A stretch of DNA of 64,000 nucleotides from Terriglobus roseus (GTDB taxonomy: Bacteria > Acidobacteriota > Terriglobia > Terriglobales > Acidobacteriaceae). Below the pieces are notes generated by a model. The model searched no databases. It was not told the DNA's origin and was given only the letters and a program-made list of their open reading frames with translations. Every line of letters begins with the position of its first letter. The stretch's first letter is position 1. A program made the translations under genes and the position numbers. Positions 3,142-19,702 of this stretch are shown here, one piece after another. The stretch spans positions 1,984,001 through 2,048,000 of the forward strand of contig NZ_FNSD01000001.1 in assembly GCF_900105625.1 (NCBI RefSeq), written 5' to 3'.

Positions 3142-4410
3142 GTGGCACAAGCAACAACCATTCCCGCGCGGCGTGTGGTCGTAACGGGCATCGGACTCAT
3201 CTGCGGCATCGGCAACACCGCCCCTGCTGTCTGGGACTCTCTGATGGCCGGCACGAGCGGCATGGCGGAGATCACGGCCTTCGATCTTGAAGGCCATCCC
3301 GCCCGCTTCGCCGCGGAAGTCAAGAACTTCGATCCGCACGTGTTCATTGAGAAGAAAGAGGCCCGGAAGATGGGCCGCTTTATTCACTTTGCCATCGCTG
3401 CGGCCCAGGAGGCGATGGACCATAGCGGTCTCCAGGTGACCCCAGAGAACGCTGAGGACATTGGCGTCCACATCGGTTCAGGCATCGGCGGTTTCGACAT
3501 CATCGAGCGCGAGCACACCAACCTGATGAACGGTGGCCCGCGTAAGATTTCGCCGTTCTTCATTCCTGCATCGATCGTGAACCTTGCTGCCGGGCACGTC
3601 TCTATCCGCTTCGGCGCGAAGGGGCCAAACCAGGCAGCGGCGACAGCCTGTACCACCTCAGCTCATTCCATTGGCGACGCCTACCGGATCATCCAGCGCG
3701 GCGACGCGGAGGCAATGATTGCGGGTGGAGCCGAAGGCGCTATCACACCGCTCAGCGTCGGTGGATTCGCGGCCATGAAGGCGCTGTCCACGCGCAATGA
3801 AGACCCTACGCACGCTTCGCGTCCGTGGGATAAGGACCGCGACGGCTTCGTCATTGGCGAAGGCGCAGGCATCCTGATCCTCGAATCGCTGGAGTTCGCA
3901 CAGGCGCGTGGTGCAAAGATCCTGGGCGAAGTGGTTGGCTACGGCATGAGTTCGGACGCCTTCCACATGACGGGCATGGCACCGGGCGGCGAAGGCTGCG
4001 CGCGTTCCATGAAGAACGCCATCAAGTCCGCGGGAGTGCAGCCGGATGAGATCAACTATGTGAACGCGCACGCCACCTCAACGCCCCTGGGCGATGTGAT
4101 GGAGTCGAAAGGCATGGAGACGGTCTTTGGTGATCACGCACTGAGCCACAAGCTGCTGGTGTCTTCCACAAAGTCCATGACGGGCCACCTTCTGGGTGGC
4201 GCAGGTGGTCTTGAGGCCGGCATCACGCTGATGGCCATGCAGAAGGGCATCGTCCCACCGACGATGAACCTGGACAACGTGGACCCAGAGTGTCGATTGA
4301 ACTATGTCCCGAACAAGCCGCAAAATGCTCAGCTGAACTACGCCCTGTCGAACTCGTTCGGCTTCGGCGGCACCAATGGTTCATTGATCTTCAAGCGTTG
4401 GGATGAATAA
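3142..4410 (+). CDS. fabF: 3-oxoacyl-ACP synthase II
   Basis: Condenses malonyl-ACP with acyl-ACP in the elongation step of fatty acid synthesis. The product is 422 aa from a GTG start placed 2 bases after the acpP stop, so translational coupling is likely. The full Cys-His-His triad is visible: Cys170 in ATACTTSAHS, His310 in NAHATSTPLGD and His349 in KSMTGHLLGGAGG, with Lys344 in STKSMTGH. The C-terminal SNSFGFGGTNGSLIF motif is also present. The sequence is complete and typical. A hairpin terminator follows 18 bases after the stop. Confidence 0.97.
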   Translation: MAQATTIPARRVVVTGIGLICGIGNTAPAVWDSLMAGTSGMAEITAFDLEGHPARFAAEVKNFDPHVFIEKKEARKMGRFIHFAIAAAQEAMDHSGLQVTPENAEDIGVHIGSGIGGFDIIEREHTNLMNGGPRKISPFFIPASIVNLAAGHVSIRFGAKGPNQAAATACTTSAHSIGDAYRIIQRGDAEAMIAGGAEGAITPLSVGGFAAMKALSTRNEDPTHASRPWDKDRDGFVIGEGAGILILESLEFAQARGAKILGEVVGYGMSSDAFHMTGMAPGGEGCARSMKNAIKSAGVQPDEINYVNAHATSTPLGDVMESKGMETVFGDHALSHKLLVSSTKSMTGHLLGGAGGLEAGITLMAMQKGIVPPTMNLDNVDPECRLNYVPNKPQNAQLNYALSNSFGFGGTNGSLIFKRWDE

Positions 4411-4481: not shown

Positions 4482-5684
4482 TCAGCGCGCAGAGACCCAG
4501 AGCCAGGTTCCGCACAGGATCGCCTGGGCCAGGACTGTGGTCACCACGACCGCCAGGAACAGTTTGCGCTGTCGGGTCTCCGTTGCATCGGCGAATGCAC
4601 CGCCAACGAAGGTAAGCAGGAAGGGATAAGCCCAGACGACGGGAATGCTGCTGATTTGAGTCGTCTCAATCGGGAGAAGCGCCAGCGTCACGAGCAGCGG
4701 AACAGTGTTGCCGAAGTAGCGTGCCGGACGCAGCAAAACCATCAGCACCAGGGCGATCCCGGCCGCAGCCGTCACCGCGAGTTGCAGTGGATCGCGCACC
4801 AATTCCAGAGCAGGCATGTAGTCCAAGGTGAAGCGCCCCGCACCTCCAGTGAACACGTACGTGAACAGGCTTAGCCGGAAGGTGTACGACGCGAATACCA
4901 GCATCAACGCGCCGAACGAGGACACCAGCAGCACGGGGATGACGAGGGTGCGTCGCCGCTCTGCGACGTAGAGCATGAAGACTGCCGAAGCCAGCAGACC
5001 GAAGACCGCTGCCAGCAGGTGCGCGCACGCCGTCAGCCCAAGCGCCAACGTGAACAGCACAATTCGCGGTCGCCACTTGCGCGGCGGCCCGTACATGGCG
5101 TGCGCGATCCCGATGGCTGTGTAGATAACGGCATACAGGCCCCAGGCGGCCAGAATTTCGTTGTTCGGTGTTGTCGCATAGCGCAATACCACCGGCGAGA
5201 GGCAGTAGAGCGCAAGCGACATCGCTCCACCCACATTGCCGAAGAGTCGTCGCGTCACCCACCACAGGCCCGCGCCGAGCATGACAGCCGCCAGCGCGAA
5301 CGGCACCCGCAGCAGGTAGCGGGTTCCCACAATCTGGTGACGCAGGTCATAAACCGATCCGCCAATGGGGTCGGACTCCACCGTGGCATGACTCCGCTTT
5401 GCAGCGATCCAGTCTTCCACGCGCAGGGTGGTCACGTACACGCTCAGGGGCAGCGCAGCTGCGCGGTAGGCCAGCGTCCCATCGCCCTGCATGTTGCCGC
5501 AGGTGGTGAAATAGCCGGCGGCGGGCGCAGGCTTCTCCCACATCTCGCGGCCGCACAGGGCATAGCGATAGTCGCTCTCTGACAGCGGCGCGCGACCGAT
5601 GACAAACAGCGTTCCCGCAAAGAACAGCAGGAGGATTAGGGCGGCGATCTTCTGGGGCAATCCAAAGTGAAAACGAAAGCTCAT
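4482..5684 (-). CDS. polytopic membrane protein, GT-C glycosyltransferase-like
   Basis: A 400-aa protein with about nine to ten hydrophobic helices. The layout recalls ArnT/PMT-type (GT39) lipid-linked sugar transferases. A first membrane helix is followed by a loop with an acidic pair (SESDYRY), then RYLLRVPFALAAVMLGAGLWWVTRRLFGN and SPVVLRYATTPNNEILAAW, which match the shape of the GT39 region after the second loop. The strongest catalytic acidic motifs are not clear and the C-terminal periplasmic domain is short. The glycosyltransferase call is therefore an inference and the substrate is unknown. The gene is convergent with fabF and divergent from the next gene. Confidence 0.5.
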   Translation of the reverse strand: MSFRFHFGLPQKIAALILLLFFAGTLFVIGRAPLSESDYRYALCGREMWEKPAPAAGYFTTCGNMQGDGTLAYRAAALPLSVYVTTLRVEDWIAAKRSHATVESDPIGGSVYDLRHQIVGTRYLLRVPFALAAVMLGAGLWWVTRRLFGNVGGAMSLALYCLSPVVLRYATTPNNEILAAWGLYAVIYTAIGIAHAMYGPPRKWRPRIVLFTLALGLTACAHLLAAVFGLLASAVFMLYVAERRRTLVIPVLLVSSFGALMLVFASYTFRLSLFTYVFTGGAGRFTLDYMPALELVRDPLQLAVTAAAGIALVLMVLLRPARYFGNTVPLLVTLALLPIETTQISSIPVVWAYPFLLTFVGGAFADATETRQRKLFLAVVVTTVLAQAILCGTWLWVSAR

Positions 5685-5759
5685 GAGGCGGCACTTCGAG
5701 TGTACCGTCCACAGGCATTCGGCACCGAGGGGCCGGCGCTCCGCATTTATCCTTACAGC

Positions 5760-6209
5760 ATGGATTCGTTGGAGTTGCAGGTGGGCGCCGGTCGCCTAGT
5801 GAGTTACTCGCCCGCGCGCGAGTTGCCGTGGCGCGTGGTGTTTGAGGATGAGGGCGCTGCGGGGTACTGCTACGCCTGTGACGGCCGCCGCGCCACCGTG
5901 GACGAGGATTTTGACGTCACCGTCATGGACGCCATGCTCGTCTACAACGTGGAAGCCATGCAGCGCGAAGACGACGGTGACCGCAAGCGCCTGCTGACCG
6001 TCGAGTGGTCGCGCGACGGACAGCGAGCGGCGGTGAGACTGGATGGTGTGCCCCAGGTATTGATCGACTTTGAGCACCGCGAGAGCCGCTGCCGAAGCAA
6101 CTTTCCTAACTTCATGGACGACGGCCGGAACCAATGGCGCAGCGCTGACCACGCGTGGGATGATGCGGCGATGACACAGTTCGAAGAGGCCGCACTGACA
6201 GCCGAATAA
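5760..6209 (+). CDS. DUF2251-like cytoplasmic protein
   Basis: A 149-aa protein from the ATG at 5760. An earlier in-frame ATG at 5667 would overlap the divergent gene's start and is less likely. The segment WRVVFEDEGAAGYCYACDG followed by VMDAMLVYNV matches my recollection of the DUF2251 family, whose function is unknown. There is no signal peptide or membrane segment. It precedes the PIG-L/NodS/GT2 cluster by about 140 bases on the same strand, so it could share transcription, though nothing in the sequence ties it to that pathway. Confidence 0.6.
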   Translation: MDSLELQVGAGRLVSYSPARELPWRVVFEDEGAAGYCYACDGRRATVDEDFDVTVMDAMLVYNVEAMQREDDGDRKRLLTVEWSRDGQRAAVRLDGVPQVLIDFEHRESRCRSNFPNFMDDGRNQWRSADHAWDDAAMTQFEEAALTAE

Positions 6210-6353
6210 CTGCTAAGTAGGAAACCCTTCTTAGTCATCGCATGAACGGATCGCAATGCGAATTGATGCGGGGCGCACGCATCGCCGTCTGCTATCACGC
6301 ACAGTAGCCATGTAAGCGACGCTGCTTTGCGAGCGTGCATCACACGACTCGCT

Positions 6354-7055
6354 GTGATCATCTCCATCATTGACGACCAACAATGGCTTACCACGCTCAC
6401 GCAGGTGCCGGCATGGACTCCATTGCCCTTGCCTGCGCTGGTTGTTGCGCCGCATCCCGACGACGAAACCCTGGGCGCCGGCGCACTGATCGCGACGCTT
6501 CGTGCGCAGGGCATACCCGTTACCGTGGTGGCCGTGACCGATGGAGAAAATGCCTACGACACCTCTCCAGAGGAGCGTGAGCATCTGCGCCGCGTACGCG
6601 AGCGGGAACAGGCCGAAGCACTGCAAGAACTGGGCGTACGCGCCGACAGCGTCCATCGACTGCGCCTGACCGACAGCGGCCTGATGGAGCGACAGGAAGA
6701 ACTGACGCGACTGTTGCTTGGACTCGCCAGGGATGGCATGCAGATCATCGCTCCGTGGTCTGGGGACTTTCATCCTGACCATATGGCCTGCGCGCACGCC
6801 GCGGAATCTGTTGCGAATGCGAAAGGTCTGCCGCTGGTCAGCTATTTCTTCTGGACGTGGCATCGCGGCACCATCGATTTGCTGGCTGGCCTGCCCATGG
6901 GCCGTTTTGTACCGGACGCGGCCGCACTGCGGGCAAAGTCTGACGCGCTCGCCTGCCATCGCTCGCAGTTGGATCATTCGAGCGGCGAACCCATCCTGCC
7001 TGATCGCCTGCTTGGCCCGGCACGCTGGCCGTTTGAGGTCTTCCTTCAGGGATGA
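6354..7055 (+). CDS. PIG-L/LmbE family N-deacetylase
   Basis: Zinc-dependent deacetylases of this fold remove acetyl groups from N-acetylglucosamine-type substrates. The metal-binding motif PHPDDE is at residues 33-38 (GTG start at 6354) and the second motif HPDH at 140-143, so the active site looks intact. A TTG at 6327 is an alternative start; neither has a strong ribosome binding site. The stop overlaps the next gene's ATG by 4 bases, the first of three such overlaps in a row. In databases the same domain is sometimes fused to a NodS-like methyltransferase (recalled, not checked), which supports a joint role. I infer that it deacetylates the amino sugar that the next gene's product methylates. 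Confidence 0.85.
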   Translation: MIISIIDDQQWLTTLTQVPAWTPLPLPALVVAPHPDDETLGAGALIATLRAQGIPVTVVAVTDGENAYDTSPEEREHLRRVREREQAEALQELGVRADSVHRLRLTDSGLMERQEELTRLLLGLARDGMQIIAPWSGDFHPDHMACAHAAESVANAKGLPLVSYFFWTWHRGTIDLLAGLPMGRFVPDAAALRAKSDALACHRSQLDHSSGEPILPDRLLGPARWPFEVFLQG

Positions 7056-7657
7056 GCATTCTCACCACAACTTCCTCGGAATTCTTCGAGGCAAAGTATC
7101 GCGGGGGAACCGATCCCTGGAACTTTGCAGCGAACGCCTACGAACAGGCGCGCTATCGCACCATCCTCCGCGCGTTATCGCCAGGCCGATACCAGCATGC
7201 GTGGGAGCCCGGCTGTTCCGTCGGCGTCTTGACGGAACAGCTTGCAGGCATCTGTGAGCAGGTGGATGCCTGCGACTTCGCGCAGTCGGCCGTGGAGCAG
7301 GCGCGTGTTCGTTGTGCGGGTCTGCCGGGCGTATCGGTTTACTGTGCTTCACTCACCGAGGATGCGCCTATCGCGATGTTTGACCTGGTCGTGCTCAGCG
7401 AGATTGGCTATTACTTCACTGCGGAAGAGTGGCATGACCAGGTTGCGCGGATCGCGCACGCCTTGCAGCCCGGAGCGACTTTGCTGGCCGCGCATTGGCT
7501 CGGACACTCTCCCGATCACATCCAGGGCGGCGATGCCGTGCACGCGGAGCTACTCGCATGCCCCCGGCTCCTGCTCGACCACAGCGAGCGACACGAGCAG
7601 GCGGACAGCGGTTTCCGTCTGGACCGTTTCAGCGTTCGAGCAGGTAAATACGCATGA
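7052..7657 (+). CDS. NodS-like SAM-dependent methyltransferase
   Basis: A 201-aa class I methyltransferase. It opens with FFEAKYRGGTDPWNFAANAYEQARYRTIL, the N-terminal signature of the NodS family, which N-methylates the free amino group of a deacetylated glucosamine in rhizobial Nod factors. The SAM-binding motif I is AWEPGCSVGVLTEQLA, and the acidic residue of motif II is in VDACDFAQSAVEQAR. ATG overlaps the PIG-L stop (ATGA) and its own stop overlaps the next ATG. Coupled synthesis with a deacetylase makes a sugar amine the most attractive substrate, but that is inference. Confidence 0.85.
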   Translation: MSILTTTSSEFFEAKYRGGTDPWNFAANAYEQARYRTILRALSPGRYQHAWEPGCSVGVLTEQLAGICEQVDACDFAQSAVEQARVRCAGLPGVSVYCASLTEDAPIAMFDLVVLSEIGYYFTAEEWHDQVARIAHALQPGATLLAAHWLGHSPDHIQGGDAVHAELLACPRLLLDHSERHEQADSGFRLDRFSVRAGKYA

Positions 7658-8385
7658 CTACAGCTCCCTGGCATATGGCAGTGCTGATCCCGGCACGCGA
7701 CGAAGAGTCGCTTTTACCTCGCTGCCTGCAGTCGGTTGAGGCCGCTCGGGCGATGCTGCCAGCCGGTGTGACCAGCGATGTGATCGTCGTTTCAGACGGT
7801 TCCACCGATGCCACGGTAGATCTGGCGCGAGCGATGCTTCACCATTCGAATGGTGCCGTGCTTAACGCAGATGCCGGCAAAGTCGGTATCGCCCGGGCAC
7901 TTGCGGCTGAACTGGCTCTGCAACGCTACTGCGGAGACCTTTCGCGCTGCTGGCTGGCTAACACAGACGCTGACTGCGAGGTGCCGCAGACCTGGCTGCT
8001 GGACCATCTGCGTCTGGCGCAGCGCGGCTACACTGCCGTTGCGGGCATTGTCGATGTGGACTGCTTTGCGGAACATCATGCCCATGTGGAGACGAGGTTT
8101 CGCCTGACCTATCAGATCAACGAGGACGGATCGCACCCGCATGTACACGGCGCCAACCTGGGTGTTCGTGCGGACGCTTACCTTCTGGCCGGTGGATGGA
8201 ACGCGCTCGAAACGGCAGAGGACCACGATCTTTGGGGACGCCTGCGTACCGCAGGAACACACCTATCCGATGCGGCACTTCGCGTGGTAACCAGTGGACG
8301 CCGCGTGGGCCGTGCTCCCCTGGGCTTTGCCGGTGCGCTTGCGGCACACAACGACTTTGTCGCCGATAGCGAGAACGCCGCGTGA
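7654..8385 (+). CDS. family 2 glycosyltransferase
   Basis: A 243-aa inverting GT-A glycosyltransferase. The nucleotide-sugar part starts with VLIPARDEESLLPRCLQSV and VIVVSDGSTDAT. The metal-binding DAD is at 105-107 in LANTDADCEVP, and the acceptor-side ETAEDHDLWGRLR resembles the ED catalytic motif of GT2 enzymes. No transmembrane anchor is evident, so unlike NodC it is probably cytoplasmic and not processive. It overlaps both neighbours by 4 bases. Likely adds or supplies the sugar modified by the two upstream enzymes. Confidence 0.85.
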   Translation: MTTAPWHMAVLIPARDEESLLPRCLQSVEAARAMLPAGVTSDVIVVSDGSTDATVDLARAMLHHSNGAVLNADAGKVGIARALAAELALQRYCGDLSRCWLANTDADCEVPQTWLLDHLRLAQRGYTAVAGIVDVDCFAEHHAHVETRFRLTYQINEDGSHPHVHGANLGVRADAYLLAGGWNALETAEDHDLWGRLRTAGTHLSDAALRVVTSGRRVGRAPLGFAGALAAHNDFVADSENAA

Positions 8386-9284
8386 CCCCGCAGGAGATCG
8401 TCACCCGCTTCGCCGATCTGTGCTCGGAAGATCTTCCGTCCCCTGGAGGCGGTCGCACGTCTGTGCGGCATCGACGCATCTTCGACGCAGGCCGCGAGGA
8501 TTTAAGCCTGGCCAAGCTGGCCGAAGCGCATTGGGACGCGGTTGCGATCCTGCGGGAGAGCGGACGGGAGCCTGTCGAAGGCGCAAAGTATGCGGTCTGG
8601 GCAAGCGAAATCCCGGGCCGGGCGATGGAATTCGCCGAGGGCAGGCTGACCGGGATAAAGGAGTTTTGCAGCGGCGCAGGGCTTGTAAATCGCGCGCTGA
8701 TCTCCGCGGGAGCCTTGCTGTTGGAAGTGGATCTGACGGCTCACCCGGAACAAATCCAGACCGACTCGACTGGATGGCAGACGGAGGCATTTCGAGCCAC
8801 ACAGACCTCCGCGCTGACCTTCGTCAACTACCCCGCAACAATCGTCGGAGAGAATAGTTGGTATGTCGAACGGCCCGGCTTCTGGCAGGGTGCATGTGGA
8901 CCCGCCGCAGCGTGGGCGGGTGGCGCCGCAGGGCTTTTGGACTATGCAATGACAGCCAAACGCGACGACGCGCATACGTCTGCTCATCTGGCGGCCATGC
9001 ATGCCAACGTCTGGGCCACGGAAGCCATCCTGTCGGCAGCAGCCGCCGAGTTCGACCTCGATCCTGCCCGGAATGCGATGGAGCGTGCCTTAGAGGTACG
9101 TCACCTCGTTGAACAACTTTGCACGGATACTCTGCGGCGATTCGCTCGCGCTCTTGGCCCTGCCCCGCTGGCGAAGAATGCCGGAATGGCACGGCGCTAC
9201 GCGGAGCTTGACCTGTTCCTGCGGCAGTCGCACGCGGAGCGAGATCTGGAATCGCTAGGCCGCTCATTGCGGTCGCAGGGTTAG
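8382..9284 (+). CDS. acyl-CoA dehydrogenase-like protein
   Basis: A 300-aa protein starting at a GTG that overlaps the glycosyltransferase stop. GIKEFCSGAGLVNRALISA matches the conserved middle region of acyl-CoA dehydrogenases, and the C-terminal half is helical as in the flavoprotein's bundle. It is 70-90 residues shorter than typical family members and I cannot identify the catalytic glutamate, so it may bind acyl chains or flavin without acting as a classical dehydrogenase. Its place as the fourth coupled gene suggests it acts on the lipid or acyl part of the cluster's product. Confidence 0.7.
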   Translation: MTPQEIVTRFADLCSEDLPSPGGGRTSVRHRRIFDAGREDLSLAKLAEAHWDAVAILRESGREPVEGAKYAVWASEIPGRAMEFAEGRLTGIKEFCSGAGLVNRALISAGALLLEVDLTAHPEQIQTDSTGWQTEAFRATQTSALTFVNYPATIVGENSWYVERPGFWQGACGPAAAWAGGAAGLLDYAMTAKRDDAHTSAHLAAMHANVWATEAILSAAAAEFDLDPARNAMERALEVRHLVEQLCTDTLRRFARALGPAPLAKNAGMARRYAELDLFLRQSHAERDLESLGRSLRSQG

Positions 9285-9429
9285 CAACCGCACCGGCCTC
9301 GGTATACGGACTCAAACTGGCTTAGCACCTCGGTACCGTCGCGACACGCCTCGGCGCGAAGTAGACTTGCAACCGCGACCGTTCACGAAGTCGCGGCCAG
9401 CTCTATCGGCACCAATTTCCGAGGTTACC

Positions 9430-10203
9430 TTGCGACACTTTGCTTCCGTGCTCTTCCTCGCCTGCGCTATGACGCATACCTCCGCGCCCGCGCAAACACC
9501 TTCCTTTGAGGTGGCGACGATCAAGCCGGTGGATCCTGCGCCAAAGGCAGGCAGATTCATGCGCGTCGAGGGAACGCATCGGTTCGTGGCACGCAATTAC
9601 ACGCTGCGCCTGCTGATTGCAGCGGCATACGACCTGAATCCACGCACTATCTCAGGCGGTCAGGGTTGGGTCGATACAGACAAATATGAAATCCAGGCGG
9701 TTACACCGGGCGAAACAGCTCCGGATCACGATGCGCAGATGCTGATGCTGCGCTCGCTGCTGGCCGAGCGATTTCACCTGGCGTTCCATCGGGAGTCAAA
9801 GATCTTCGCCATCTACGAGATCACCGTCGCCAAGGGCGGCCCAAAGCTGGCGCCAAGCCTTACACCGGAGGCGCCGCCGCAGACCGTAAGCGTCGTATAT
9901 CCCGACAAGATGGTCATGCCAGCACGCAACGCCACCATTGGCGACCTGGCCCGCGTCATGCAGCGAGCCATCCTGGACCGGCCTGTGGTGGACCGCACGG
10001 GACTGACCAACCGTTACAACTTCAATCTGGAGTGGGCCCCGGACGAGACGCAGTTCAGTGGTGATGTCCCGCCGCCGGAAGAGTCGCAAAGCCCGCCACT
10101 GCTGCTGGCCATGCGACAACAGCTTGGGTTGCAGATGACCGCCGTAAAGGGCCCGGTGGACACAATCGTGATCGACCGCGCGCACAAGCCGACCGCGAAC
10201 TGA
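9430..10203 (+). CDS. secreted TIGR03435 (DUF3738) family protein
   Basis: A family strongly expanded in soil Acidobacteria; molecular function unknown. The hallmark segment PSFEVATIKPVDP, then RNYTLRLLIAAAYDLNPRTISGGQGWVDTDKYEI, is intact, as is the late VVDRTGLTNRYNFNLEW. A TTG start at 9430 fits best: it directly precedes a signal peptide (RHFASVLFLACAMTHTSAPAQ) and follows a GAGG ribosome binding site at 9421. A TTG at 9367 would add a non-signal-like leader. The mature protein is presumably periplasmic. It stands alone between the four-gene cluster and a convergent membrane protein. Confidence 0.85.
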   Translation: MRHFASVLFLACAMTHTSAPAQTPSFEVATIKPVDPAPKAGRFMRVEGTHRFVARNYTLRLLIAAAYDLNPRTISGGQGWVDTDKYEIQAVTPGETAPDHDAQMLMLRSLLAERFHLAFHRESKIFAIYEITVAKGGPKLAPSLTPEAPPQTVSVVYPDKMVMPARNATIGDLARVMQRAILDRPVVDRTGLTNRYNFNLEWAPDETQFSGDVPPPEESQSPPLLLAMRQQLGLQMTAVKGPVDTIVIDRAHKPTAN

Positions 10204-12851: not shown

Positions 12852-13724
12852 ATGGAGTGGATGCCCATCGGCCGCGGTCCAGTCACGCTCTCCCTGCCTG
12901 CCTTCCGCGGCGCCGTCCGCCGGCTGGTGATCCTGTTGGTGGGCGCATTCTTCGCCATTGCCCTGCTGAACTTCATCTCCGGGACCGTCGCCACAACGGT
13001 GGTCGGGCTGATGATCCTGATGCCGTCGGCCGTATTGGGCCGCCTTCACATCTGGGAGCTGGTCACCTATGCCTTCCTGAATGTCGGCATCCTGAACACG
13101 GCCTTCTCGCTGCTGACCCTCTGGTTTACGGGCTCCATGCTGGAAGACAGCCGTGGCTCGCGCTGGTTTACCGAACTTTTTTATACCTCCGTTGTGGGTG
13201 GTTCGTTGCTCGCGACGCTGCTGGCCGGCCTGCCTCTGTTCACCGGCGACCGCATCAGCTTCTTTGGCATCCACCCGGGCGTGGGGCTTGTTGCGGCGGG
13301 TATTTCGGCCCCGCTTTTTGGCGTGCTGGTCGCGTTTGCACTCCTGTTTGGCGATGTCGAGTTCATGCTGTTCTTCGTCCTGCGTATCAAGGCGAAGTAC
13401 ATGGTGATTCTGGGCGCCCTGCTGTATGTGGCTACGCTGCTGCGCGAGAAGGACAGCTTCGGTGCGCTGCTGGCGCTGTGCTGTGGCCTGGCAGGCCTCG
13501 CCTATGTGAAGCTGGCTCACCGCCGTGGTATGTCCGCTACCGCCGCAGAGCGGTACTACGGACTCCGCAATGACTACATCCGGTGGAAGCGCCGCCGTGC
13601 CGCGCGCAAGTTTGAGGTCTACATGCGAAAGCAGGATCGCATCGTGAAGTTTGACGATGAAGGCCGCTACATCGCACCGGAAGACGAAGCCCGCAAACCA
13701 AACGACCGCAAGTGGATGAACTAG
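12852..13724 (+). CDS. rhomboid-like membrane protein, probably inactive
   Basis: About 290 aa with six membrane helices. IWELVTYAFLNVGILNTAFSLLTLWFTGSMLED resembles rhomboid helix L1-TM2. GISAPLFGVLVAFALLFGD aligns with the rhomboid GASGAIFGLL segment, keeping the serine but losing the GxSG context. The helix that should carry the catalytic histidine reads ALLALCCGLAGLAY with no histidine. A basic cytoplasmic tail (RWKRRRAARKFEVYMRKQDR) ends the protein. I read it as a rhomboid-fold protein without protease activity. The start is uncertain: ATG at 12852 or 12861. Confidence 0.6.
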   Translation: MEWMPIGRGPVTLSLPAFRGAVRRLVILLVGAFFAIALLNFISGTVATTVVGLMILMPSAVLGRLHIWELVTYAFLNVGILNTAFSLLTLWFTGSMLEDSRGSRWFTELFYTSVVGGSLLATLLAGLPLFTGDRISFFGIHPGVGLVAAGISAPLFGVLVAFALLFGDVEFMLFFVLRIKAKYMVILGALLYVATLLREKDSFGALLALCCGLAGLAYVKLAHRRGMSATAAERYYGLRNDYIRWKRRRAARKFEVYMRKQDRIVKFDDEGRYIAPEDEARKPNDRKWMN

Positions 13725-13886
13725 CCACTTCGTGCGGTTCTCGACACGCTTCGCGTGTGTCCCCTGAATGAAATCTTCGCGATAACAAAGGCTCTCGCAA
13801 AGTCACGCCGCATTGCGTCGTGAACCATGCGCCACAAGCGTTCTCAGACGGGTGTCCCGCATCCAACGCCGTGAGGAGAAACAACC

Positions 13887-14279
13887 ATGGCTGATCTGGC
13901 AACGCTGCAGCAGAAGTACGAACCCGTTCTGAAGGCAATCGACCGCTTCACGCCTGAAGGCGCTGCGCTGCAGGATGTATCGCTCGACGGTGACAAGCTT
14001 CATGTAAAGGCAACACTGCCCTCGCAGGTATGTCTGAACTTTGTTTGGGATCAGATCAAGAAGGTCGATGCCACCTATGCCGACCTGCATCACGAACTCA
14101 TCAACACCGGCGGCGACACGCAGCCCTACACGGTAAAGCCCGGCGACATGCTGAGCAAGATTGCGCAACATTTCTACGGCGACGGAAACCTCTACCCGCA
14201 GATCGTGAAGGCAAATAGCATCGCGAATCCTGACGCGTTGAAGGCCGGCGAAAAGCTCACCATTCCGCCGAAAGCCTAG
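13887..14279 (+). CDS. LysM domain protein, Kbp/YgaU-like
   Basis: A 130-aa protein with no signal peptide. Residues 1-75 form a small alpha-beta domain (LQDVSLDGDKLHVKATLPSQ) like the BON-type module of the potassium-binding protein Kbp. Residues 80-128 are a LysM repeat: YTVKPGDMLSKIAQHFYGDGNLYPQIVKAN, ending LKAGEKLTIPP. The architecture matches E. coli Kbp. Absence of an export signal fits that cytoplasmic family rather than a wall-binding LysM protein. A good GAGGAG ribosome binding site precedes ATG. Confidence 0.8.
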   Translation: MADLATLQQKYEPVLKAIDRFTPEGAALQDVSLDGDKLHVKATLPSQVCLNFVWDQIKKVDATYADLHHELINTGGDTQPYTVKPGDMLSKIAQHFYGDGNLYPQIVKANSIANPDALKAGEKLTIPPKA

Positions 14280-14297
14280 CGGTCGTTCCCTTGAAAT

Positions 14298-14333
14298 GAC
14301 TCAGTCATCCCGCGACAGTGGGATGACTGAGTC
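14298..14333. terminator. long hairpin between convergent LysM and VWFA genes
   Basis: A perfect 14-bp inverted repeat (GACTCAGTCATCCC and its complement) with an 8-base loop lies in the convergent gap. There is no strong T run, so it may act as a transcript-end stabiliser as well as a terminator. Confidence 0.7.
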
Positions 14334-14355
14334 GTGACCAGGTCCGGCGGTACCG

Positions 14356-15399
14356 CTACTTCACGTCCGATGGCGGAACATCGCCAGCGTAGTAATTTCT
14401 GCGCGCGCGGATATCAGCTTCCGGGTATTCCGGTACCGTCACCTTGATCTCGTGCAGACCGTTCTCTGCCCCGCTGGGGACAGGGAAGCTGAGCAGGTAG
14501 TAGTTGTGCACACGATTCGTCAGCTTGCCTAGGCTCTCATCAAAGCCCGCGCGATTATTGAAGTGAAAGTAGTCTCCGCCTGACTCTTCGGCGATTGCCT
14601 TTGCCGTGTTCTTGCGCATCCCCTGCACTGCCATGATCAGGGTGCCAATGGGACCACGGCCTCCCGAGAAGTGCTTTAGGTCGTCCATGGTCTCATTGCT
14701 GCCGGGCGAGTATGCGACTGCATCCACCACCGTATTGCTGCGGCCCAGCTGCGCGATCAGATCCTTCTCTTTGACCGACGAGCCGTGGTCGCGCGCCTCC
14801 CCCACCAGCAACACCGCATGGCGGTTATGCGTGTCACGGTTCTCCAGGATGGAGCTCGCATAGCTGACGGCATCACGCGTCGCCGCTTCATCGTCTTCGC
14901 AGGGCCCCATGCGAGACATCGCGCTTGCGACCTTGTCCAGCGACCGCGTAAAAGGCTGCACAAGCTCCGGGTGCGCGCCATAGCGAATCAGTGCGATCTC
15001 GTGCGGGCCACCCCCCACCAATGATTCCACCAGTGTGGGCAGGCCTTGCAGCTTCTCGTACTCCATCATCGCCATGCGCGAGCACTGCACAGCGACGACC
15101 AGCGACAGGCCGAAGCCCTGGGCATCCTCATCCAGCGTGACGGCCTGCGAAACGCCGTTGTCGAGTATGCGAAACTTGTCGGCCTTGAGGCCATAGACGA
15201 TCTGGCCCTTGATACTGACGGTCGCGGGCACCAGCACGATCTTCGCGCCGGCCTTCAGTGTGTACGTCTGCTGTGACGGATCCTGCGTGGGCGCGGCATC
15301 GGTGGCAGGCGGCGCGGCAGGTGTTTGCGCATACGCAGCTGAGCCCAACGCCAGGAACAACATTGTCACGAACTTCCTTGCGGCCATCATTCCCAACAT
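14356..15399 (-). CDS. acidobacterial VWFA-related secreted protein
   Basis: A 347-aa protein with an N-terminal signal peptide ending near SAAYAQT. The VWFA-related domain covers residues ~45-310: IVLVPATVSIKGQIVYGLKADKFRILDNGVSQAVTLDED, then a Rossmann-like region with HAVLLVGEARDHGSS. This matches the VWFA-domain family (TIGR03436) common in Acidobacteria, usually with an FxVxDnGkxQ motif as here. The classical DxSxS metal site is not clear (QCSRMAM). It is presumably periplasmic; partners unknown. Confidence 0.85.
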   Translation of the reverse strand: MLGMMAARKFVTMLFLALGSAAYAQTPAAPPATDAAPTQDPSQQTYTLKAGAKIVLVPATVSIKGQIVYGLKADKFRILDNGVSQAVTLDEDAQGFGLSLVVAVQCSRMAMMEYEKLQGLPTLVESLVGGGPHEIALIRYGAHPELVQPFTRSLDKVASAMSRMGPCEDDEAATRDAVSYASSILENRDTHNRHAVLLVGEARDHGSSVKEKDLIAQLGRSNTVVDAVAYSPGSNETMDDLKHFSGGRGPIGTLIMAVQGMRKNTAKAIAEESGGDYFHFNNRAGFDESLGKLTNRVHNYYLLSFPVPSGAENGLHEIKVTVPEYPEADIRARRNYYAGDVPPSDVK

Positions 15400-17515: not shown

Positions 17516-17677
17516 ACGCGGGATAAGCAACGACTCGTGTCGCCACAGGAAAGTTGTTGATGCCACAGCTCTGTGGGGTGCCCGACATGGCGGCGGATGG
17601 CCAGATCAACAGGCCACTCGCCGTCCTCTGAACCCGTCTATGGGTACTGCAGGGACGCCCTGCGGGAGAACAGAGCA

Positions 17678-18421
17678 ATGGCAGAGACAGAGCAGGTAAG
17701 GTTTCCGCGGCAAGGCAGTGACTACAATCCGCTGCCACGCAGTAAGAAGGATGGCCGCGTTGTAGCGCATGCGGTACAGACCATCGCCGCAACACCACAC
17801 GAGGTCTACCAGGTCTACAGTCGCGGCGAGTTGCTGCCCACGTGGCAGGAGGGTGTCATTTCCGTTACTGCAACAGGGGAGAAGACCTTTCATTGGTTGA
17901 TCGAAGACCCCGCCACGAAGAAGCAGATGGAGTTCGACTCGGAAGTACTGGAGGCTGTACCCGGCGAGCGGCACGTCTCCCGCATCGTGAATGGTCCGCT
18001 TGAAAGCACCACGGACACGGTCACCTTTGTCCAACATCCGGCCGGCCGCGGCACCATTGTCACCATGATCAGCGACTACAAGATCCCTGGTGGTGTTCTA
18101 GCGAACGTTTTCGCAGCCGTTGTCTCTCGGAGCCCTGAGCAGCTCACCATTGAGAACCTCCGCCACTTGAAGGAACTGATCGAGAGTAAGGAGATCCCCA
18201 CTGTGGAGGGGCAGCCTGCCGGACCGCGTGGCGTGATGGGTAAGTGGAAGGAATTCCTGATGGGTGAGAACCTGCCCACACCTCCCGGCACAAGTGATCG
18301 CGCACGTCCTCAGGATCTACCGGAACAAGCTGGCAGACTATCGCCGTTGCTGATTGGCGGTGTGGCTGTCGCCGCCGGTACAGCCGCCTGGTTCGGCGTT
18401 CGCGCCATGCTGGATGAGTAA
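17678..18421 (+). CDS. SRPBCC (START-like) domain protein with C-terminal membrane segment
   Basis: A 247-aa protein from the ATG at 17678, nine bases after GGGAG. Residues ~20-160 form a helix-grip lipid-binding fold of the cyclase/dehydrase type: VVAHAVQTIAATPHEVYQVYSRGELLPTWQEGV, then VTFVQHPAGRGTIVTMISDY. A hydrophobic helix near the end (LLIGGVAVAAGTAAWFGV) could anchor it. It lies 72 bases before the dehydrogenase gene on the same strand, and I expect co-transcription. The ligand is unknown. Confidence 0.75.
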   Translation: MAETEQVRFPRQGSDYNPLPRSKKDGRVVAHAVQTIAATPHEVYQVYSRGELLPTWQEGVISVTATGEKTFHWLIEDPATKKQMEFDSEVLEAVPGERHVSRIVNGPLESTTDTVTFVQHPAGRGTIVTMISDYKIPGGVLANVFAAVVSRSPEQLTIENLRHLKELIESKEIPTVEGQPAGPRGVMGKWKEFLMGENLPTPPGTSDRARPQDLPEQAGRLSPLLIGGVAVAAGTAAWFGVRAMLDE

Positions 18422-18493
18422 CAGCGCTCACTTACCGACTTTTTACAACGATTCAAAGCAGCAGTATGAGCGCTCAGCGCCGGGAGTAACACG

Positions 18494-19702
18494 ATGAAGG
18501 CAGTTTGCTGGATGGGAACGGGCAAAGTAGAAGTGCACACGGTGGATGACCCAAAGATTCTGAACCCGGGCGACGCAATTCTGCGGATCACGCGCACTGC
18601 AATCTGCGGTAGTGATCTGCACCTGTATGACGGCTACATTCCGACGATGGAGTCGGGTGACATCCTTGGTCACGAGTTCATGGGCATCGTGGAAGAAGTT
18701 GGCAGTGAGGTGAAGAAGCTGAAAGTTGGCGACCGTGTCGTGGTGCCGTTCACCATCGCCTGCGGTAATTGTTTCCCGTGCAAGACAGATTTGTGGTCCC
18801 TCTGCGATAACAGCAATCCGAACGCGCATGTTGCCGAGGCTATGTATGGCTACAGCGGATCCGCGTTATTTGGTTACTCCCATATCTATGGCGGCTACGC
18901 CGGTGGACAAGCGCAGTATGTTCGTGTCCCGTTCGCAGACGTGGGGCCGATCAAAATCGAAAGCGACATTGCGGATGAGAAGGTACTCTTTCTGTCGGAT
19001 ATCTATCCGACCGGCTACCAGGGTGCAGAGAATGCACAGATCAAGCCCGGCGATAACATTGCGGTGTGGGGAGCTGGACCCGTTGGGCTATTCGCCGCTG
19101 CCAGTGCGTACATGCTCGGAGCGGGAAAGGTGTTTGTGATCGACCGCTTACCGGAGCGGCTCGCTCTCGCACGCGACTACTGCGGCGCTACCGTCATCGA
19201 CTACAGCGATGGCAAGAGCATCGTGGAAGCGTTGCGCGATCTGACCGGTGGCATCGGTCCGGATAGCTGCATCGATGCTGTCGGCATGGAGGCACATGGC
19301 ACCGACGTGTCGGCAATGTATGACAAGGTCGAGCAGGGGCTGATGCTCGAGACCGATCGCCCGACAGCGCTGCGTCAGATCTTCCAGAGTGTGCGCAAGG
19401 GTGGCACGGTCTCTATTCCGGGCGTCTACGGCGGCGTGTTGAACAAGCTGAATTTTGGGGCAGCATTTGGTAAGGGTCTGACGTTGAAGATGGGCCAGAC
19501 CAACATGCACAAATATCTGAAGCCGTTGCTGGAACGAGTGGAACAGGGGCAGATCGATCCGAGCTTCCTGATCTCGCACCGTATCGGGATCCAGGACGTG
19601 CCGGACATGTATAAAATTTGGCGCGACAAGAAGGACCAGGTGACGAAGATTGTCATCGATCCCTTCCGCGAGACAGGTATCGAGAAACTGCGCGCTGCAT
19701 AA
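18494..19702 (+). CDS. zinc-dependent alcohol dehydrogenase, formaldehyde-dehydrogenase-like
   Basis: A 402-aa medium-chain dehydrogenase. The catalytic zinc site is seen in [14 protein letters not shown] and [17 protein letters not shown]. The structural zinc site appears as [15 protein letters not shown], and the NAD(P) site as [20 protein letters not shown]. The long insert and the [11 protein letters not shown]-like C-terminal region resemble glutathione-independent formaldehyde dehydrogenases, but the real substrate cannot be read from sequence. The ribosome binding site is GGGAG at 18482. It is downstream of the SRPBCC gene and followed by a repeat element. Confidence 0.85.

Follow-up and report, generated by a model that had tools for sequence, protein, structure and literature searches.

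A conserved four-gene unit encoding a PIG-L deacetylase, a NodS-related methyltransferase, a GT2 glycosyltransferase and an acyl-CoA-dehydrogenase-fold protein

Four overlapping genes at positions 6354 to 9284 of the stretch analysed here (the window, 64,000 nucleotides of a 4.8 Mb acidobacterial genome whose relatives are Acidobacteriaceae) form a unit that is real and conserved. They encode a PIG-L/LmbE-family deacetylase, a methyltransferase (MT) related to NodS, a glycosyltransferase (GT) of family GT2 and a protein with the fold of the acyl-CoA dehydrogenases (ACADs). Because the four co-occur, overlap by four nucleotides, are sometimes fused and are present together within one bacterial family, we are highly confident that they serve one pathway. 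It is an even call whether the unit, a compact operon of patchy distribution that probably moves horizontally, encodes one short small-molecule pathway, perhaps for stress protection. The genes and their junctions are as follows:

6354..7055, + strand: PIG-L/LmbE-family N-deacetylase, 233 amino acids, GTG start; Pfam PF02585, 6.3e-27
7052..7055, + strand: ATGA overlap of 4 bases, PIG-L stop and MT start (read from the sequence)
7052..7657, + strand: NodS-related S-adenosylmethionine (SAM)-dependent methyltransferase, 201 amino acids; Pfam PF05401, 2.1e-16
7654..7657, + strand: ATGA overlap of 4 bases, MT stop and GT start (read from the sequence)
7654..8385, + strand: GT2 glycosyltransferase (GT-A fold), 243 amino acids; Pfam PF00535, 2e-15
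8382..8385, + strand: GTGA overlap of 4 bases, GT stop and ACAD-like start (read from the sequence)
8382..9284, + strand: ACAD-fold flavoprotein, short form, probably monooxygenase-like, 300 amino acids

The three overlaps, which an earlier note on this DNA had described, are directly visible in the sequence. An in-frame TTG at 6327 is an alternative start for the PIG-L gene; the GTG at 6354 gives 233 amino acids, equal in length to the PIG-L open reading frame (ORF) of Terriglobus roseus (L018, 7303-8004). This is the nearest named relative at the locus, with four proteins 75-84% identical to those of the window and most of the flanking genes in common.

Conservation was assessed by scanning one genome per species with an MT alignment seeded with the cluster MTs, and the best 80 loci of at least 587 confirmed candidates were analysed. 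Presence was called with our own profiles at 120 bits for MT and PIG-L, 150 bits for the ACAD-like protein and 60 bits for the GT. All four genes were found in 70 of the 80 loci, which were picked by MT similarity and are not a random sample; nine loci had three of the genes and one had the MT alone. The profile matches span no more than 4.7 kb in every one of the 80 loci. The proposal that the genes behave as one unit is thus upheld. An overlap of exactly four nucleotides, defined as an in-frame ATG, GTG or TTG overlapping the stop codon as NTGA and with the true starts only assumed, fits 153 of the 213 neighbouring same-strand pairs. Eight of the 213 pairs are in-frame fusions, comprising seven of PIG-L with MT (L039, L042, L043, L054, L074, L078 and L080, by profile) and one of ACAD with PIG-L. 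A Pfam check agrees for the latter and for three of the seven (L039, L074 and L078), so that the fused PIG-L/methyltransferase proteins mentioned in the earlier note do exist within these 80 loci. A literature search found no described function for such a fusion.

Gene order varies among the loci. The order ACAD-PIGL-MT-GT occurs in 37, ACAD-PIGL-MT with a divergent GT2 on the opposite strand in 14, the window's order PIGL-MT-GT-ACAD in 11, GT-ACAD-PIGL-MT in six and GT-PIGL-MT-ACAD in two. Five gene orders therefore keep the same four genes, which argues for one pathway. Full sets were found in Acidobacteriota, Pseudomonadota, Actinomycetota, Bacteroidota, Cyanobacteria and Verrucomicrobiota; Chloroflexota, Thermomicrobia and Deinococcus showed three of the genes, Deinococcus being brought in through plasmid records and not the MT genome scan. 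The Deinococcus plasmid (L014) has a helicase gene between PIG-L and MT, and on a Cupriavidus plasmid (L012) the unit lacks a close PIG-L. Co-occurrence in distant taxa, proposed earlier as a check on a shared pathway, is accordingly seen across several phyla.

Since the 80 loci had been picked by their MTs, 200 genomes of the window's own family served as a fairer test, with bit cut-offs chosen after the score gaps were known. The ACAD-like protein scored above 200 bits in 13 of the 200 genomes, the MT above 180 bits in 12 and the GT above 100 bits in 12, and all three were present in 11. In each of the ten other than the window's own, all four genes are adjacent; the PIG-L ORF of G304 is short (60 bits). 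Wide separation of the genes in close relatives, which would have spoken against a pathway, was thus not seen in any of the 11. Outside these, G345 and G328 have parts of the unit at the ends of contigs, and for the MT of G260 none of the three partners was found nearby. Uncounted at these cut-offs were two ACAD-like proteins of 170 bits in G338, an MT of 104 bits in G263 and three GTs of 78-84 bits. The G338 pair (C48:72256 and C36:63156), in a genome with no MT above 180 bits, perhaps belongs to a related but different unit.

The unit is present in three of eight genomes of the genus, and its surroundings differ. Most window ORFs on both flanks match T. roseus. When the other ten same-family loci were compared with the first 26 kb of the window, only genes of the unit were shared, the exceptions being a remote TIGR03435 paralogue with 28% identity, and a pair of adjacent genes (window 17573-19702) present in L148. 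The latter are a polyketide-cyclase-like gene and an alcohol-dehydrogenase-like gene; the second of them has homologues of 72-73% identity in L148, roughly 2 kb away from the unit, and in L151, next to a partnerless MT.

In the MT tree, the Legionella and Acidobacteriaceae copies fall into one clade of eight rows (100/96), before which Acidipila branches (94/85), and two of the three Legionella loci (L010, L026 and L028) have the window's full gene order. The shared clade and order suggest transfer between Legionella and Acidobacteriota (L018-L024). The tree has a bootstrap that is not fully settled and a weak rooting, with root rows that do not lie on one side of a branch and several outgroup rows that are long or off-side. 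The rows L113, L116, L117, L126 and L111 are very long, three of them (L113, L116 and L126) with read-through stops treated as gaps, and their placements were not used. Copies of the unit are also carried on plasmids: 11 annotated plasmid regions with the unit or most of it (L010-L016 and L137-L140) were picked by hand from the match lists, L017 being omitted for want of annotation. Taken together with its patchiness, the unit probably moves horizontally. Between window positions 30 and 15400, several flanking proteins are 87-97% identical to those of T. roseus, compared with 75-84% for the cluster proteins; other flanking proteins are also lower, at 73-82%, and faster divergence of the unit than of its flanks is only suggested. 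Immediately upstream of the unit lies a gene for a DUF2251 protein (5667-6209) that is 97% identical in T. roseus, and just downstream a gene of the TIGR03435/DUF3738 paralogue family (9367-10203), in the same arrangement as in T. roseus.

The enzyme families suggest a route of four steps, in an order that we infer. The GT2 enzyme would place an N-acetylated amino sugar, probably N-acetylglucosamine (GlcNAc), onto a small acceptor, and the PIG-L protein would then take off the acetyl group. The NodS-related MT would methylate the amine so freed, and the ACAD-fold protein, instead of dehydrogenating fatty-acyl substrates, may oxygenate or oxidise the product or the acceptor in a flavin-dependent reaction.

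The first protein belongs to the PIG-L/LmbE family (PF02585, 95.1 bits against a cut-off of 28.2), and its metal-site motifs are intact, with HPDDE (H34, D36, D37, E38) and HPDH (H140, D142, H143) invariant in seven aligned members. Its nearest solved structures by profile are diacetylchitobiose deacetylase (4.1e-23), BshB1 (2.6e-19) and MshB (7.2e-14), which places the family, on profile comparison, nearest to GlcNAc deacetylases. The closest solved relative of the MT is PDB 4isc (5e-23 with the single sequence, 1.5e-56 by profile), a structure titled 'Methyltransferase', a name that gives no function. Among matches of named function, NodS is nearest (3ofj, 3.6e-12, again with the single sequence). 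The motifs DPW, E-GC--G, SE--YY and HW are invariant in ten MT members. Because PIG-L and MT are found fused, PIG-L lies near GlcNAc deacetylases and the MT near NodS, it is likely that the amine freed by deacetylation is the one that is then methylated. A NodS-like MT stretch was also seen inside a 1000-amino-acid annotated glycosyltransferase on a plasmid of Sinorhizobium sp. B11 (L136:3417-6419), in a cluster that holds other glycosyltransferases and an ABC transporter.

The fourth protein matches no Pfam family at E 0.01, and its kinship with ACADs comes from a profile search, the annotation of plasmid homologues and structure prediction. The last of these, another check proposed at the outset, gave a model (pLDDT 97.1) with the ACAD fold across residues 1-300; the 50 matches listed have Z 26.5-27.9 over 283-295 residues. 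It is on the catalytic residue, not on the fold, that we doubt a classical acyl-CoA dehydrogenase. In an alignment with four ordinary ACADs, the glutamate of the GEGT motif, which we take to be their catalytic base, is replaced by Gln282 (Arg281 if the alignment is shifted by one), and Gln282 is invariant in 55 members. Isovaleryl-CoA dehydrogenase presumably places its glutamate at an alternative position, and there, judged by eye, the fourth protein has no glutamate either. Among PDB entries, the 55-row family profile matches DszC best (9.6e-22); the SfnB model matches 43 of the 55 members, the Pfam ACAD middle domain 27 and the DszC model 18. Given the missing catalytic glutamate, the best profile match to DszC and the matches of the SfnB and DszC models, flavin-dependent oxygenation is the better guess; 'acyl-CoA dehydrogenase' is here the name of a fold and not likely an activity, and an oxidative role of some kind is modestly favoured.

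Several points tell against the oxygenase assignment. The window's own protein matches no NCBIfam or Pfam model at 0.001, and the kinship with oxygenases derives from the family profiles, not from the window protein alone. Ordinary ACAD models match some members too, and the structural Z scores tie dehydrogenases with monooxygenases, so that the fold cannot separate them; two dehydrogenases (2dvl and 4kto) head the list of fold matches. The DszC/SfnB/MsuC monooxygenases and the nitrososynthases, the best profile matches of the family, share its fold, although their solved chains exceed the window protein by about 70-100 residues and are 13-17% identical to it (Foldseek). There is no flavin reductase among the unit's four genes, and no search for one was made. 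In one relative, on a Deinococcus radiodurans plasmid (L098:2202-4541), the ACAD-like protein carries an extra N-terminal domain of about 400 amino acids with no Pfam match, which presumably resembles a TIM-barrel glycosidase; two homologues of this domain lie near the Spirosoma unit (L085:15282-16448 and 13139-14479; 3.5e-78 and 8.2e-19). A fusion of ACAD to GT was considered for this protein and rejected, as its N-terminal 420 amino acids match none of 12 GTs from unit loci.

The nitrososynthases and their relatives (3mxl, 4kcf and 4zxv) that appear among the matches of the fourth protein act on amino sugars, and the solved relatives of PIG-L include the teicoplanin deacetylase Orf2, Dbv21 and LnmX. 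Together with the patchy presence within the genus, these would fit a specialised natural product, aminoglycoside-like or otherwise, with a toxic or signalling function. The unit itself, however, has no self-resistance or exporter gene, and the conservation of its gene set in many phyla would be unusual for a toxin pathway; we consider such a product improbable.

The GT is a clear member of GT2 (PF00535, 57.6 bits against a cut-off of 23.3). Its model (pLDDT 96.4) matches GT-A structures, with WrtF at the top (Z 21.4), and the DAD and ED residues are invariant or at least 90% conserved in 46 members; none of the fold matches is functionally telling. In the 14 loci mentioned above (Bacteroidota, Cyanobacteria and Labrys), the opposite-strand GT is a divergent GT2 of greater length; the acceptor may thus vary from lineage to lineage, a point against the favoured scheme. 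The fold matches of the window GT, which also include TarS and chondroitin polymerase, would suit a different role, in which the product is no free small molecule but a modified surface glycan or glycolipid, such as a polysaccharide carrying a methylated amino sugar. In Novosphingobium the gene run that contains the unit includes four glycosyltransferase genes, among them one GT4, and the extra domain of the Deinococcus ACAD-like protein and the NodS-like stretch in the polysaccharide-type cluster of Sinorhizobium point the same way. Against this, no polymerase or flippase was noticed among the recurrent neighbours, not all of whose families were identified, an apparent ABC-exporter family seen in 11 genera lies at least 0.9 kb from the unit, and the GT and ACAD-like proteins are predicted to be globular. 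Surface decoration is the most serious competitor, yet unlikely, and a small-molecule product is preferred.

A link between that product and stress was sought in the neighbourhood of the unit, using 40 loci (33 genomes and seven plasmids, mostly one per genus) and genome-wide family counts. Ferritin/Dps genes lie within 10 kb of the unit in seven of the 33 genomes against 0.30 expected (P 1.5e-8, a value that is optimistic, as are the others, because the stress families were first noticed in the same loci and then tested). Catalase is found within this distance in two genomes (0.18 expected) and trehalose phosphatase in two, both Legionella (0.12 expected). Single arrangements are suggestive: in Comamonas the four genes lie between otsA and otsB on one strand, with otsA overlapping the ACAD-like gene by four bases; in Legionella lytica the unit follows otsB and a GH65 gene; in Sulfitobacter a catalase gene follows the unit; and in Bradyrhizobium the unit has Ku/LigD genes at a distance of a few kb. 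Catalase also lies within about 5 kb of the unit in four of the 11 opened annotated plasmid clusters. Upstream of the unit, two SigF-like patterns occur in three and four of 50 actinobacterial loci (0.20 and 0.13 expected), and two EcfG-like patterns in three and two of five alphaproteobacterial loci (0.47 and 0.31 expected). The SigF-dependent list for Mycobacterium smegmatis includes a 'Methylase, putative' (MSMEG_1771) and a GT2 (MSMEG_1097) (PMC4694148); at most, these two are candidate members of the unit.

Besides their post hoc choice, the stress families face further objections. Of the 33 genomes, 25 lack all three families within 10 kb of the unit, the seven plasmids have no ferritin/Dps near the unit (catalase three, trehalose phosphatase two), none of the three was seen among the window proteins scanned, and the excess of promoter patterns over background is weak and lends thin support. 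A stress role for the unit is consequently about evenly balanced. Trehalose, as acceptor or as a co-produced protectant, is a lead only. The fullest version of the scheme, in which a cassette moved between phyla would make a new class of stress metabolite, a zwitterionic protectant consisting of a small glycoside (trehalose-linked or similar) whose amino sugar is N-methylated and flavin-oxidised to an N-oxide or N-hydroxy form, is a long shot.

Four genes so often overlapping or fused across phyla almost certainly represent a real pathway. They are at present annotated singly and under names that may mislead ('nodulation', 'acyl-CoA dehydrogenase'), and our literature search, in the portions of text available, found no description of the four-gene set. 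With at least 587 MT candidates, hundreds of loci or more would become interpretable once the product is identified, and this may reveal a new amino-sugar metabolite, possibly one for survival under drying or oxidative stress. NodS, in turn, gains a wider, non-symbiotic family context.

Among known systems, mycothiol and bacillithiol synthesis offers one comparison, since MshB and BshB belong to the same PIG-L family as the window deacetylase and deacetylate the GlcNAc glycoside of a small molecule. A related low-molecular-weight thiol or redox buffer would also agree with the ferritin/Dps and catalase genes near the unit in some genomes, and with the sulfur-compound monooxygenases to which the profile of the fourth protein is nearest. 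However, the PIG-L protein falls far below the equivalog cut-offs for BshB1 (60.9 against 182.5 bits), BshB2 (59.9 against 195.25) and MshB (37.1 against 224.35), the GT is a GT2 while BshA and MshA are GT4 enzymes, and no cysteine-adding enzyme (cysteine ligase) is encoded in the unit. A thiol is thus quite improbable.

Nod factor synthesis, the comparison made in the earlier note, involves the same types of reaction in principle (NodS, NodB and NodC), and a GT2, a deacetylase and an MT homologous to NodS, its closest named family, are encoded together here. The likeness holds at the level of reaction type and does not extend to membership of the Nod pathway. The MT reaches 73 bits against the NCBIfam NodS equivalog cut-off of 300, and in the tree seven rhizobial NodS form a separate clade (100/100) that does not contain the window MT, all 47 cluster MTs lying with six other rows on a branch of their own (97/76). 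Descent of NodS from this unit is not supported, as NodS branches apart from the cluster MTs. Pfam and NCBIfam scans of the unit and six neighbouring genes, and Pfam scans of other proteins of the window, found no NodA, NodB or NodC; the NCBIfam matches of the GT do not include NodC, and NodB itself is not a PIG-L protein. Rhizobial nodS adjoins nodA/B/C and nodU, unlike the copy on a Bradyrhizobium japonicum plasmid, which has the ACAD-like, PIG-L, MT and GT2 genes a few kb from Ku/LigD and no nod gene within the 12.5 kb shown. This copy also makes the description 'outside rhizobia' incomplete. The lipo-amino-sugar product that had been envisaged finds no backing in its lipid part: no acyltransferase was found in the unit, and the fourth protein lacks the dehydrogenase glutamate and is closer by profile to flavin monooxygenases. 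A FabF gene (3142-4410) was rejected as a sign of lipid, because, of the same-family loci compared, the window and T. roseus alone have it next to the unit. A Nod-factor-like signal is accordingly the least probable of the products weighed against a small molecule. A further parallel is with the PIG-L/class I methyltransferase fusion proteins, which are like the first two genes joined, inside this same four-gene unit: one protein there, two overlapping genes in the window.

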